In this document: one piece after another, positions 6,558 to 35,911 of the stretch
How positions within the stretch are numbered: position 1 is the first letter of the stretch
How the letters are laid out: every line of letters begins with the position of its first letter
Assembly (NCBI GenBank): GCA_020436125.1
Contig: JAGQYK010000026.1
Coordinates: 1 to 43,622 of the forward strand
Length of the DNA: 43,622 nucleotides
Source of the DNA: Cyclobacteriaceae bacterium
Lineage (GTDB): Bacteria; Bacteroidota; Bacteroidia; Cytophagales; Cyclobacteriaceae
Reading direction: 5' to 3'
Position numbers and translations under genes: made by a program
The notes under the pieces: generated by a model
What the model saw: only the letters and a program-made list of their open reading frames with translations
Databases searched by the model: none
What the model was told of the DNA's origin: nothing

Positions 6558-7118
6558 ATGATGCACCGTACTGATTTGATCAACGACCTTAAAACCCGTA
6601 CTGAGGAAATTCTCCTCGAAGCGACTCAATTCAATTCCTTATCTAAAGAGGACCTGAACCATCGCAATGCACCCGACAGCTGGAGCATATTGGAGTGTTT
6701 GGAGCATTTAAACAGGTATGGAGACTTCTATTTACCTGAAATTAACAGAAGAATTAAAGGAGCGCAACTCTCTAAAAATGAGGTATTTAATAGCGGTTGG
6801 TTGGGTAATTACTTTGCCATGAGTATGCTTCCCGGTGAAAACGGGAAGTTGAACAAAATGAAAACGTTCAAATCGATGAATCCGGTTCATACCCGCTTGG
6901 ACGTGGATGTCATCACCAGGTTTTTGGATCAGCAGAAACAGCTATTGGAATTGCTCACCAAAGCGCAAAGTGTTGATTTGAATAAAGTGAAAACATCGAT
7001 TAGTATTAGTAGGTGGATCAAACTCCGCTTAGGTGATACATTACGGGTAGTTATCTACCACAACCAAAGGCACATGAAACAGGCGTCAAAAGTATTAACA
7101 GCACTTCAGTTGCATTAA
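6558..7118 (+). CDS. DinB-like four-helix-bundle protein
   Basis: This is a putative metal-dependent protein of the DinB/YfiT superfamily, about 186 aa. The signature NHRNAPDSWSILECLEHLNRYGDFY gives the first metal-ligand histidine in ECLEHLNRY, and the last helix contributes VIYHNQRHMKQA, the classic H-x3-H pair. Members act as thiol transferases or have unknown roles. The longer frame begins at ATG 6531, but ATG 6558 or 6561 (MMHRTDLIND) fits the helix start better. It follows the Crp/Fnr gene by about 50 bp and may be co-transcribed. A second DinB-family gene lies at 40764. Confidence 0.85.
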   Translation: MMHRTDLINDLKTRTEEILLEATQFNSLSKEDLNHRNAPDSWSILECLEHLNRYGDFYLPEINRRIKGAQLSKNEVFNSGWLGNYFAMSMLPGENGKLNKMKTFKSMNPVHTRLDVDVITRFLDQQKQLLELLTKAQSVDLNKVKTSISISRWIKLRLGDTLRVVIYHNQRHMKQASKVLTALQLH

Positions 7119-7233
7119 TTTTTTTGTTACGTGCTTAACTATTTCATCCTTTTTAGCGTTATTGAATCTGATAGTTGTCGCTATCGGCATTTTGTTTAAC
7201 GTTCTGATTTTACAAGAGCAACAACATTATGCT

Positions 7234-7241
7234 TATGTTTC
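7234..7241 (+). promoter_or_regulatory. Possible Bacteroidota -7 element for the structured transcript
   Basis: TATGTTTC matches the TAnnTTTG -7 consensus in seven of eight positions. A transcript starting about seven bases further on would begin just before the extended Shine-Dalgarno at 7248, giving a very short leader. No clean TTTG -33 box is present at the right spacing, so the call is weak. Confidence 0.3.
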
Positions 7242-7261
7242 ACTAAAAGAAAGGAGGTACC

Positions 7262-7327
7262 ATGTCTAGTCCCATGAAAGATTTGTCAAATACTGTTACA
7301 CTAAATTCCACAGGTGTGGAGTGTTGA
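7262..7327 (+). CDS. Short ORF (21 aa) behind an extended Shine-Dalgarno
   Basis: ATG at 7262 follows AGAAAGGAGGT, which is complementary over 11 bases to the usual 16S rRNA 3' end (ACCUCCUUUCU); the GGAGG core is four bases from the ATG. Most genes in this window have no SD at all, so this site is exceptional. The peptide reads MSSPMKDLSNTVTLNSTGVEC and has no signal or membrane segment. Its last seven codons lie inside a predicted stem, which would couple translation and RNA folding. It could be a real microprotein, a leader peptide, or a ribosome-binding decoy that is not usefully translated. Confidence 0.4.
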   Translation: MSSPMKDLSNTVTLNSTGVEC

Positions 7328-7471
7328 GCAGTTGATTTGTGCCTCGTGACAATTTAGTGTATTTGATAAAATTGAATGAGGATTTCGACCGGTGAATGCT
7401 TTGAAAGCATTCGTTCCTGAAAGGGTTGATCGCAACTGACTGTGAAGCCAGTTCGTCAAGGTTTTATTAAG

Positions 7472-7501
7472 TACCCGGCCACGTTAGTGGTCGGGTATTT
7501 T
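7472..7501 (+). terminator. Intrinsic terminator of the structured transcript
   Basis: TACCCGGCCAC (7472-7482) pairs with GTGGTCGGGTA (7487-7497) through 11 pairs, one of them a G-U, around the loop GTTA. Four T follow. The stem is GC-rich and the polarity fits a plus-strand transcript. Confidence 0.85.
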
Positions 7502-7504
7502 GCA

Positions 7505-7625
7505 GGGTTGACTCAAAATGTACACGTCATTGCGAACAAAGTGAAGCAATCTCCTAAAAATCTAAATAATATTTGGGGGATCGCCACGCTCGCGATAACG
7601 ATCTAATTGATTTTTTTGTCAACCC
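7505..7625. repeat. REP/MITE-like palindromic element
   Basis: The element is bounded by a perfect inverted repeat, GGGTTGAC (7505-7512) and GTCAACCC (7618-7625), reinforced by AAAA and TTTT next to the arms. Inside are CGTCATTGCGAA and GTGAAGCAATCTCC on the left (about 7525-7554) and a diverged partner GGGGGATCGCCACGCTCGCGATAACG on the right (about 7575-7600). The 'GTCATTGCGAgC...GAAGCAATC' core is a widespread dispersed intergenic repeat in Bacteroidota. A related copy lies at about 33012-33060. Confidence 0.6.
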
Positions 7626-7632
7626 AATTGGT

Positions 7633-8052
7633 TTACAAAATATTGATGTGATATACATCAGACTCATTCCTGTTGATGTTCCTGATTTCAAAACCACCCG
7701 GTTGTGGAATCTCTTCTACCAAATCAAACTGAGTGCAAGTTTTGGGTAGCCCACCAAATACCAGCAAAAAGTTATGGGTAGCACCTTTCGGCACCAGCAG
7801 CCACTGTGGTGCAATGGTTATGTTTTCGGCATGCAAGAGCTGCGGTTTTGCGCTAGAATGATGATCAATCAGGAAAGTGGTTTTCCATATCCTTACCAAT
7901 AAATCATCTCCACGGTTGGCACATCGGCAATGCACGTAGACACACCCTTCTTCCAGCGTACGTGGGTCAATGGACGCCAACACCTCTGTGTCAACGTCCG
8001 GTTTTACCTTTACAGGAGCTTCTTTATCTGGATGGGTGTGATTCTCCATCAA
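7633..8052 (-). CDS. Cys-containing hypothetical protein next to a CDGSH protein
   Basis: The 139-aa product begins 12 bp after the stop of the CDGSH gene on the same strand, so the two are probably co-transcribed. It has a charged N-terminal tail, then a beta-rich body (VYVHCRCANRGDDLLVRIW, FLIDHHSS, PQLLHAENITIAPQWLLVPKG, NFLLVFGGLP). Cysteines C37, C42 and C44 together with H41 form a C-x4-C-x-C cluster that could bind a metal or contribute to a disulfide; C105-region adds another in PKTCTQFD. There is no signal peptide. I do not recognise a characterised family; the shared operon suggests a role around iron-sulfur or redox handling. Confidence 0.7.
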   Translation of the reverse strand: MMENHTHPDKEAPVKVKPDVDTEVLASIDPRTLEEGCVYVHCRCANRGDDLLVRIWKTTFLIDHHSSAKPQLLHAENITIAPQWLLVPKGATHNFLLVFGGLPKTCTQFDLVEEIPQPGGFEIRNINRNESDVYHINIL

Positions 8053-35402: not shown

Positions 35403-35530
35403 GGTTATCTGGTTGTTGGTTTTTTGACAATTATTTAACAGGTGATAGTTGTTGATTGTTACTTCTTATTTCTGTCTTCTTACTTCTCACAGCTATTCAA
35501 AAATACAAAGTAATCCTTGAAAGTGAGGAA
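35403..35530. other. Leader region of the acyl-CoA dehydrogenase
   Basis: This AT-rich stretch belongs to the minus-strand gene. It contains repeated CTTCTTA blocks (35463-35488) similar to the inverted repeat at 26599-26642, and a TATTTTTG -7 box at 35498-35505. Nothing coding is seen. Confidence 0.4.
35498..35505 (-). promoter_or_regulatory. TAnnTTTG -7 element upstream of the acyl-CoA dehydrogenase
   Basis: The minus strand reads TATTTTTG, a perfect consensus match, implying a leader of about 90 bases before ATG 35402. A convincing TTTG -33 box is not seen. Confidence 0.45.
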
Positions 35531-35555
35531 CGTGTAATTCAAATGCCCTGAAGGG

Positions 35556-35848
35556 GTGTATGGTTTTGCACTCGGGGTGGGTAGAATGTACCCTCGGTGT
35601 GGTTGGGAATGCTGGAGCACCACATACAATACCCCTTTGGGGTGGTCGGTTTTGCACTTGGTGTATATGGTTTTGCAGATGGGCCATATGGAAGTGCACA
35701 AGCGGTGGATGGTTTTGCACTTGGGGTGGATTGGATGTACCCTCCGTGTGGTTGGAAGTGCAGGAGCACCACACACAATACACCCTTGGTGTGGTTGGCT
35801 TTGCACTCGGGGTGGTTGGCTTTTTTGGTAGGAAAAGGTGAGGGTTGA
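35556..35848. repeat. G/T-rich imperfect tandem duplication, open in all six frames
   Basis: Two copies of a 149-bp unit begin at 35560 and 35709 with ATGGTTTTGCAC; the second is truncated after about 112 matching bases. Shared blocks include GGGGTGG, ATGTACCCTC, GTGTGGTTGG and GGAGCACCACA. The motif TTTTGCACT/TTTTGCAG recurs at about 35563, 35650, 35670 and 35712, with CTTTGCACT at about 35795. The plus strand is rich in G and T and poor in A, and none of the six frames has a stop across at least 35597-35783. I do not think it is coding; the openness follows from composition. No known repeat family is recognised. Confidence 0.75.
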
Positions 35849-35911
35849 GCCACCGTTTTAGGCTTATAAAAAAATGTGAAAAATATTTTAAAAATAATTA
35901 AGAAAAACGCA

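Follow-up and report, generated by a model that had tools for sequence, protein, structure and literature searches.

Dual-function sRNAs such as SgrS/SgrT and RNAIII are stand-alone structured RNAs with a terminator and a small ORF. In leader peptides and attenuators, a short ORF led by a Shine–Dalgarno (SD) sequence is folded into alternative stems ahead of a terminator. Hok-like mRNAs contain a small ORF as well, and their 3′ part pairs over a long range with the start region. In Bacteroidia, the ribosomes keep their anti-SD sequestered. McNutt and colleagues report that F. johnsoniae ribosomes without bS21 have a preference for extended-SD mRNA; judging from the available parts of that article, the control exerted by such ribosomes appears limited to rpsU, and ~20% of Cytophagales, mainly Cyclobacteriaceae, harbour an exceptional rpsU SD (PMC9976891).

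Here, we describe an element found in a 4.2-Mb draft genome, on one of its contigs, in the 43,622-nt stretch of DNA hereafter called the window (positions 1 to 43,622). With extended-SD rpsU it shares an exceptionally strong SD, predicted to pair beyond −13 kcal/mol, in an SD-less phylum (PMC9976891, in its available parts). Unlike extended-SD rpsU, it encodes no bS21, it appears as a stand-alone structured RNA with a micropeptide, and it is mostly found in genomes whose rpsU has no SD. It resembles SgrS/SgrT and RNAIII as a stand-alone structured RNA with a terminator and a small ORF. In contrast with these RNAs, its conserved core helices are formed by the ORF itself, and no base-pairing target was found with rpsU, the only candidate tried. 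Like leader peptides, it combines a short SD-led ORF of arrest-peptide length with alternative stems and a terminator, but no conserved co-directional gene follows it. Its parts resemble those of all three kinds of systems, and the defining set of none of them is present in full. Among the PMC matches listed, as far as their texts were available, no paper deals with such an element.

Organization of the locus

The preliminary description of this locus placed a structured transcript at 7234..7504. The element does lie there, but it starts some 80–110 nt further upstream, with a promoter-like element at 7136–7160 and a hairpin at 7168–7187. Its sequence points to an RNA of ~335 nt, from about 7167 to 7501, that would run from its own promoter to its own terminator. 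The predicted fold of the 271-nt stretch has an energy of −85 kcal/mol, compared with −64.5 kcal/mol (sd 4.4) for shuffled sequences (z −4.67), and none of the 200 shuffles was as strong. The only full-length match to the element in its own genome is the element itself. Its features are the following:

7136..7160, + strand: promoter-like element TAAC-N16-GCGTT, with boxes in homologous upstream regions
7168..7187, + strand: 5′ hairpin CTGATAGT-TGTC-GCTATCGG, with covariation; probable 5′ end of the RNA
7231..7243, + strand: conserved GCTTATGTTTCAC segment directly before the SD (alignments A1–A3)
7248..7258, + strand: extended SD AGAAAGGAGGT, 11 nt complementary to the 16S rRNA 3′ end (sequence, duplex energy)
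7262..7327, + strand: 21-codon ORF MSSPMKDLSNTVTLNSTGVEC, stop included (open in homologues, pN/pS)
7268..7272, + strand: 5′ strand of helix P0, AGUCC, codons 3–4, pairing with 7380–7384
7280..7293, + strand: 5′ strand of helix P1, codons 7–11 (covariation)
7297..7307, + strand: 5′ strand of helix P2, the 11-bp stem of the preliminary description, with its partner at 7351–7361
7341..7348, + strand: GCCUCGUG segment, possible alternative pairing (RNAalifold, inspection)
7351..7361, + strand: 3′ strand of helix P2 (predicted fold)
7359..7370, + strand: 3′ strand of helix P1, GUAUUUGAUAAA (covariation)
7380..7384, + strand: 3′ strand of helix P0, GGAUU; GGATT found 3′ of the ORF in 55/55 listed loci
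7394..7412, + strand: 8-bp hairpin, clade-specific insert (read from the sequence)
7435..7452, + strand: GUGA-capped hairpin, clade-specific insert (read from the sequence)
7472..7501, + strand: intrinsic terminator with an 11-bp stem, a GTTA loop and a T-rich tail (fold, sequence)

The 21-codon ORF announced after the SD is present at 7262–7327 and ends with TGA. The 11-bp stem reported to bury the end of this ORF also exists (TACACTAAATT/AATTTAGTGTA, 7297–7307/7351–7361). However, the stem itself spans codons 12–16, and the end of the ORF is found inside the hairpin that it closes.

Homologues and distribution

The preliminary description proposed covariance and Rfam searches, held that compensatory changes in the stems across relatives would support the element and that homologous regions conserving neither stems nor SD would speak against it. 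The Rfam scan gave no match above the gathering threshold in the window or in 13 loci; the best sub-threshold match in 7100–7640 was YenS, at 16.8 bits against a threshold of 80. With lax thresholds, nothing credible was detected in the homologues, the best matches being to microRNA models, mostly on both strands, in L240 and L242. In these two loci, stretches downstream of the element (L240:455-526 and L242:406-502) match animal microRNA models on both strands and are presumably local palindromes. ARAGORN identified no tRNA or tmRNA in the window, and the tRNA-like domain with a tag ORF that defines tmRNA is absent.

A BLAST search of 58 genomes, including that of the window, yielded clear relatives in 3 of the 35 other genomes of the genus and in one other of the order. 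The weak match L026 turned out to be real; L015, another weak match, has no SD, and L014 and L035 are coding coincidences. Searching for an exact pattern (AAAGGAGGTA, 2–10 nt, ATGTCTAGT) identified 37/291 genomes of the order, with one occurrence each, and none with the reversed control. A looser pattern was found in 3/345 genomes of the class, all three belonging to the order. In a scan of named genomes, 29 of 31 stretches correspond to the element, the other two (L087 and L093) being chance matches in coding sequences. The element is thus present in Chryseolinea, Ohtaekwangia, Chryseosolibacter, Dawidia, Parachryseolinea, Pseudochryseolinea, Xanthocytophaga, Cesiribacter, Nafulsella and Anditalea, as well as in two other isolates and in MAGs; three of these genera were checked and are Cytophagales. 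The pattern used for that scan left out the AGTAGT type of family f13, a family that we infer to be Hymenobacteraceae.

We then used a covariance model, R1, built on 27 sequences (alignment A3), several of which come from genomes searched with it. R1 recovered homologues in 55/291 genomes of the order, one per genome, and 54 of these are credible. The remaining one, L249 (G082, family f15, 30.9 bits), is probably a chance match because it starts a 119-aa ORF. By family, R1 matched 44/44 genomes of f13, 7/8 of f5 and single genomes of f1 (that of the window), f18, f20 and f15. None of the four other genomes of the same genus in the 291-genome draw was matched. Together with the BLAST result, this indicates that the element is patchy near the window and universal in f13. 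Short forms of the element occur in four named genomes (Nafulsella, Anditalea, Cesiribacter and YIM B00369). Not used to build R1, they score 58–70 bits, and the model thus does not overlook this form. Across the homologues, the SD, the ORF and the long-range stem are all retained, the last with compensatory changes.

Outside the order, R1 matched eight genomes of the class at E up to 0.1. L251, L252/L260 and L253/L261 look like credible homologues, in which the SD is accompanied by a short ORF, by a GGA(T/A) segment and by a terminator. L254–L258 are unconvincing and look like chance matches, and L259, the sole addition from a pattern search of 22 genomes of the order of G639, is a coding coincidence. 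In viral contigs, 17 of 21 stretches begin ORFs of at least 82 codons; in the four short ones, inspection revealed no other part of the element.

Shine–Dalgarno sequence and 16S rRNA

The SD AGAAAGGAGGT sits at 7248–7258, with 11 bases complementary to the canonical 16S rRNA 3′ end, as first described. The accompanying statement that genes otherwise lack SDs agrees with the finding of an SD-like motif at only 1 of 27 hand-picked ORFs in the window. The duplex of the window SD with GAUCACCUCCUUUCU has a predicted energy of −17.7 kcal/mol, and those of 11 credible members of the covariance model range from −17.6 to −20.3 kcal/mol; the canonical 16S tail was used for all of them. These values are below −13 kcal/mol, the limit for an exceptionally strong SD. 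Nevertheless, the SD string by itself is not enriched, since the 4.2-Mb genome contains AGAAAGGAGG at 10 sites, compared with 17 for the reversed control. The SD thus derives its meaning from its conservation alone. One further site of the 10 (L131) precedes an ATG at normal spacing, followed by a 24-codon ORF.

AAAGAAAGGAGGTA and ATGTCTAGTCC show no variation in the 31 rows of alignment A1; in most of these rows, AAAGGAGGTA and ATGTCTAGT(C) are fixed by construction, as the rows were gathered with a pattern containing them. The members found with the model do vary at the SD and the start, with MSNP, MSDSP and GTG starts. The members read have an ATG or GTG at start-site spacing after the SD, and most of them keep the 11-nt complementarity. 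One exception is L239 (~160-180, G117), a member of family f5 whose SD is shortened to AAAGAAAGGTGCTATG while the ORF and the 3′ parts are kept; this copy may have decayed, or it may reflect an assembly error.

We located the 16S rRNA 3′ end in 7 of the 24 genomes searched for it, and that of the window’s own genome was not among them. The anti-SD CCTCCTTTCT is present in 16/16 rRNA copies of these seven element-bearing genomes. The sequence directly before the anti-SD varies: GGAACACCTCC is found in two of the genomes and GGATTACCTCC in a third one, instead of GGATCACCTCC (L262 and L269 in G104, L263 and L270 in the Chryseolinea serpens genome, L268 and L274 in G639). The element of the third genome, AGAAAGGAGGTA, pairs with its 16S rRNA over one extra base, which does not amount to covariation as the A in question is common in the family. 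Within the element, the SD is mostly paired in the predictions (mean unpaired 0.28 over 38 rows, of which at least 4 are mis-cut), an indicative figure only.

The putative micropeptide ORF

The ORF has 18–23 codons and is open throughout the homologues read. For 23 distinct f13 ORFs of 23 codons, taken from 41 loci, pN/pS amounts to 0.38 in frame (0.27 over codons 10–23) and to 1.28 and 1.20 when the two remaining frames are read. The SLSN motif is kept even though its second Ser codon switches between TCG/TCC and AGT. Outside f13, 21 of 30 listed peptides end with G-V-x-x-stop, including the four short forms. Together, the in-frame pN/pS, the codon switch and the shared C-terminus indicate selection on the peptide in addition to the RNA fold. 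These sequence comparisons argue that the ORF is under amino-acid selection and support its being coding.

The peptides found outside the order are very different (MSNSDKTLSVKQISNLSVVKMN and MSCSNCNLINFITINAYRR). In f13, residue 21 is E, G or V and tracks RNA pairing, since an ORF-internal hairpin compensates its pairs, as judged by inspection. With 21 codons, the ORF of the window is not bS21 (PF01165 has 55 positions). Inspection of the 18–23-residue peptides by eye revealed no obvious membrane stretch.

RNA structure

In helix P0, codons 3–4 (AGUCC) pair with GGAUU ahead of the terminator. Both strands are invariant in the 27 rows of A3, which precludes covariation, and they are partly fixed by how the rows were gathered and cut; GGATT follows the ORF in every listed locus. 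In helix P1, codons 7–9 pair with GAUAAAAUU. On A3, four of the nine P1 pairs change on both sides, in 11 cells, whereas sliding the structure along the alignment gave 0–3 both-sided pairs and 0–7 cells. RNAalifold on the earlier alignment A2 missed P1 and proposed helices without any both-sided change; P0 and P1 were tested afterwards as a named structure on the better alignment A3. Three of five measures then lay beyond all 500 shuffles, and two were reached by them, the number of both-sided pairs in 54/500 and that of further pair types in 210/500.

By inspection, the four named short forms lack the P2 partner. Their P1 strands are re-wired in sequence, and the pairing is retained. In f13, an ORF-internal hairpin of the type GU[U/C/A]CG ... 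CG[A/G/U]AC displays three compensated pair types besides wobble variants, again by inspection. The GCCUCGUG segment has several possible partners, namely the SD and AGGU near the ORF end (both by inspection only) or AUGAGG at 7376–7381. RNAalifold proposes the latter as a CCUCGU/AUGAGG helix, for which covariation is absent.

The 8-bp and GUGA-capped hairpins of the preliminary description are both present, between GGAUU and the terminator, but they are confined to near relatives. Among the listed homologues, the segment has the form seen in the window only in L085/L009 and L100. On this comparison, the two hairpins are not part of the conserved core.

Promoter-like boxes, 5′ hairpin and terminator

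Upstream of the 5′ hairpin, 50 of 61 homologous regions contain AAC, 16 nt, then CGTT or A.CTT, ending 13–20 nt before the hairpin loop; the pattern is absent from the other 11. Shuffling each region over 300 rounds gave a mean of 0.3 regions and a maximum of 3, a generous comparison because the pattern was defined after viewing the sequences. The −10 box is A.CTT in f13, and AAC-N16-..CTT is found upstream in three of the four named short forms. Housekeeping promoters of Bacteroidetes harbour TTG at −33 and TAnnTTTG at −7. This pattern partially fits f13 (TAACTTTA) and does not fit the window. The usual pattern of ECF-sigma promoters, according to the available parts of a published account, is AAC at −35 and CGT at −10 (PMC4153023), and the element shares both, except that f13 members depart from it by their A.CTT. 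Thus, two short boxes suggest that the element may be under ECF control.

A 5′ hairpin was detected by a pairing rule in 61 of 73 loci and not in the other 12, with its loop 61–90 nt before the SD. All five counted pairs change on both sides, in 38 of 165 cells (33 aligned of 47 distinct hairpins). Shuffles matched the number of pairs in 25/500 and the pair types in 12/500, and none matched the other measures. Slid by −3, the hairpin still pairs at 75%, and the figure of 100% for the hairpins themselves carries no weight, as they were selected for pairing. The RNA probably begins with this hairpin. Although a scan marked it as terminator-like in the window, it was rejected as a terminator: the listed homologues have no T run there, and the promoter-like boxes precede it.

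The terminator proper is an 11-bp stem (7472–7482/7487–7497) with one G-U pair, as the preliminary description had it. It was not flagged by the consensus scan, which demands five T in the eight bases directly after the stem. By inspection, the listed homologues have a G+C stem-loop and a T run after GGATT. Directly past the terminator, the window contains GTCATTGCGAAC...GAAGCAATCTC (7525–7600), and L010 has GTCATTCAGAGG... downstream of its element; these sequences look like dispersed intergenic repeats.

Relation to rpsU

We collected rpsU leaders from 50 genomes of the order (the 30 best rpsU matches and 20 chosen by hand), with starts located by tblastn. In the 24 element-bearing genomes of this set, no rpsU has a strong SD, all being weaker than −7 kcal/mol. 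Among the 26 element-free genomes, the rpsU SD reaches −18.6 kcal/mol or stronger in 12 and −11.5 kcal/mol in one more; 14 of the 26 likewise have no rpsU SD beyond −18 kcal/mol. In 16 of 20 named genomes with the element, rpsU is present as a single, SD-less copy. In Anditalea, the only copy is preceded by a strong SD. Cesiribacter, Nafulsella and YIM B00369 each have a pair of copies, in which a strong SD precedes one and a weaker SD or none precedes the other (L183/L203, L186/L204 and L187/L205); this suggests two versions of bS21 under different control.

In total, an extended rpsU SD is missing from 40 of the 44 element-bearing genomes examined, and the element is of the short form in the other four. 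As these four have a strong rpsU SD, the link is not strict. The genome sets are non-random, may share species and include f13, a single clade, and so this relation is a pattern rather than a test. A role of the element as a marker of genomes lacking bS21 was rejected, given that 284/291 genomes of the order have a bS21 match. No bS21 gene was found in the window’s own draft genome (G000), probably because of an assembly gap. Base pairing of the element with rpsU mRNA gained no support either, with energies of −28.6 kcal/mol for cognate and −28.4 kcal/mol for non-cognate combinations (p 0.77, 32 pairs).

Genomic context

In the window, the element is flanked by a DinB-like gene and, on the other side, by an oppositely directed gene with no Pfam match, in line with the preliminary remark that no same-strand gene follows. 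At the 29 loci of named genomes, a crude ORF caller placed the first downstream ORF on the strand of the element in 12 cases and on the other strand in 12; in five, it detected none. The adjoining gene families differ between genera. Two neighbour families recur in f13, the downstream one being encoded mostly on the opposite strand. The mix of strands and the changing neighbours are best explained by a stand-alone transcription unit. A riboswitch, which had been considered unlikely at the outset, finds no more favour here, with downstream genes on either strand that differ between genera. Elsewhere in the window, several overlapping ORFs of 80–110 aa are present on both strands of a 370-bp stretch (35480–35853). 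This is a composition oddity, at which a tandem repeat search detected nothing.

Discussion

Comparison of the homologues reveals a stand-alone locus with promoter-like boxes, hairpins, an SD, a selected ORF and a long-range helix. Based on these features, we lean, if by a modest degree, towards an mRNA of its own for a micropeptide, gated by its fold, with an SD that would favour ribosomes whose anti-SD is exposed. Several observations weigh against this reading: the patchy occurrence in the window’s own genus, the loose link with rpsU, the two P0 and P1 measures reached by shuffles, the ECF assignment from two short boxes, an SD predicted to be mostly paired, and the lack of support for rpsU mRNA as a target. 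Among the proposals made in the preliminary description, a microprotein mRNA controlled by folding is the one that fits best, given the purifying selection on the peptide and the location of the ORF within conserved helices. As a whole, that first interpretation is partly supported.

The sequence of events might be as follows. A stress or another signal would cause the RNA to be made through an ECF-type sigma factor, as its boxes suggest. The transcript would start with the 5′ hairpin, end at its own terminator and encode a conserved micropeptide of 18–23 residues. In the free RNA, P0 and the covariation-backed P1 would tie the start region of the ORF to the 3′ part. Normal Bacteroidia ribosomes, with their sequestered anti-SD, would initiate poorly, whereas ribosomes with an exposed anti-SD, such as those lacking bS21, could initiate through the 11-nt SD, by analogy with what the available parts of the F. 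johnsoniae work describe (PMC9976891). Because the 3′ segment pairs with the first half of the ORF, ribosomes must open the fold, and translation would both produce the micropeptide and melt P0, P1 and P2. Melting may free CCUCG, AUGAGG and other segments for alternative pairing, although the corresponding helix shows no covariation. Such an RNA could act in trans as a stress-controlled reporter of anti-SD-exposed ribosomes, its translated micropeptide or refolded RNA adjusting ribosome composition or the stress response; this is a tentative proposal that we would not favour at present. It would apply to lineages whose rpsU has no extended SD, in which an ECF-driven RNA might be the client of bS21-lacking ribosomes, an equally speculative notion.

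A simpler gene may be considered, whose sole product is the peptide, the SD serving strong translation and the folds mRNA stability, with no sensing of the ribosome state. The amino-acid selection on the ORF, the stand-alone locus and the GVxx-stop ends shared by 21 of the 30 listed peptides, even by the four short forms that by inspection have no P2 partner, are what one would expect of it. It hardly explains, however, an SD of −17.7 kcal/mol among the SD-less genes of the window, the peptide residues that also track RNA pairing (residue 21) or the very different peptides outside the order (MSNSDKTLSVKQISNLSVVKMN, MSCSNCNLINFITINAYRR). We regard it as a real possibility, yet one with the evidence rather against it. 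A non-coding RNA, with an incidental ORF, appears improbable to us. Its SD would titrate ribosomes or pre-30S particles with an exposed anti-SD, or another part of it would pair with mRNAs. The 16S rRNA complementarity kept in most members read is consistent with this, as is the stand-alone, strongly structured nature of the RNA, and the early suggestion of an sRNA titrating or sensing free or altered ribosomes is in keeping with the distribution of rpsU SDs and with the bS21 literature in its available parts (PMC9976891). Nevertheless, the frame and its amino acids are conserved, unlike the other two frames, an ATG or GTG is found at start-site spacing behind the SD in the members read, and rpsU is unsupported as a target.

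The last two candidates borrow their layout from known systems, and we consider both highly unlikely. The short ORF, the alternative pairings and the terminator look like those of a leader peptide and attenuator controlling a downstream gene, and the recurring neighbours in f13 might be seen in the same light. However, an attenuator is at odds with neighbours that are not conserved between genera, with the 12/12/5 split of same-strand, opposite-strand and missing downstream ORFs at the 29 named loci, and with next genes on the opposite strand, both in the window and in most f13 loci. A type I toxin mRNA inhibited by fold-back would account for the hok-like combination of a small ORF and long-range pairing between the 3′ part and the start region. 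Such a toxin is hard to reconcile with peptides of 18–23 residues with no membrane stretch obvious by inspection, and with a single-copy element present in 44/44 f13 genomes.

If the tentative role as a trans-acting reporter is borne out, the element would be a second, unannotated client of specialized ribosomes in Bacteroidota besides rpsU. More generally, a special ribosome state may be what it reports on or what allows it to be read. It adds an RNA family with no Rfam match, together with a selected micropeptide below the usual length for gene calling. As a conserved, single-copy, extended-SD RNA, it makes testable the question of what else is translated by ribosomes with an exposed anti-SD.
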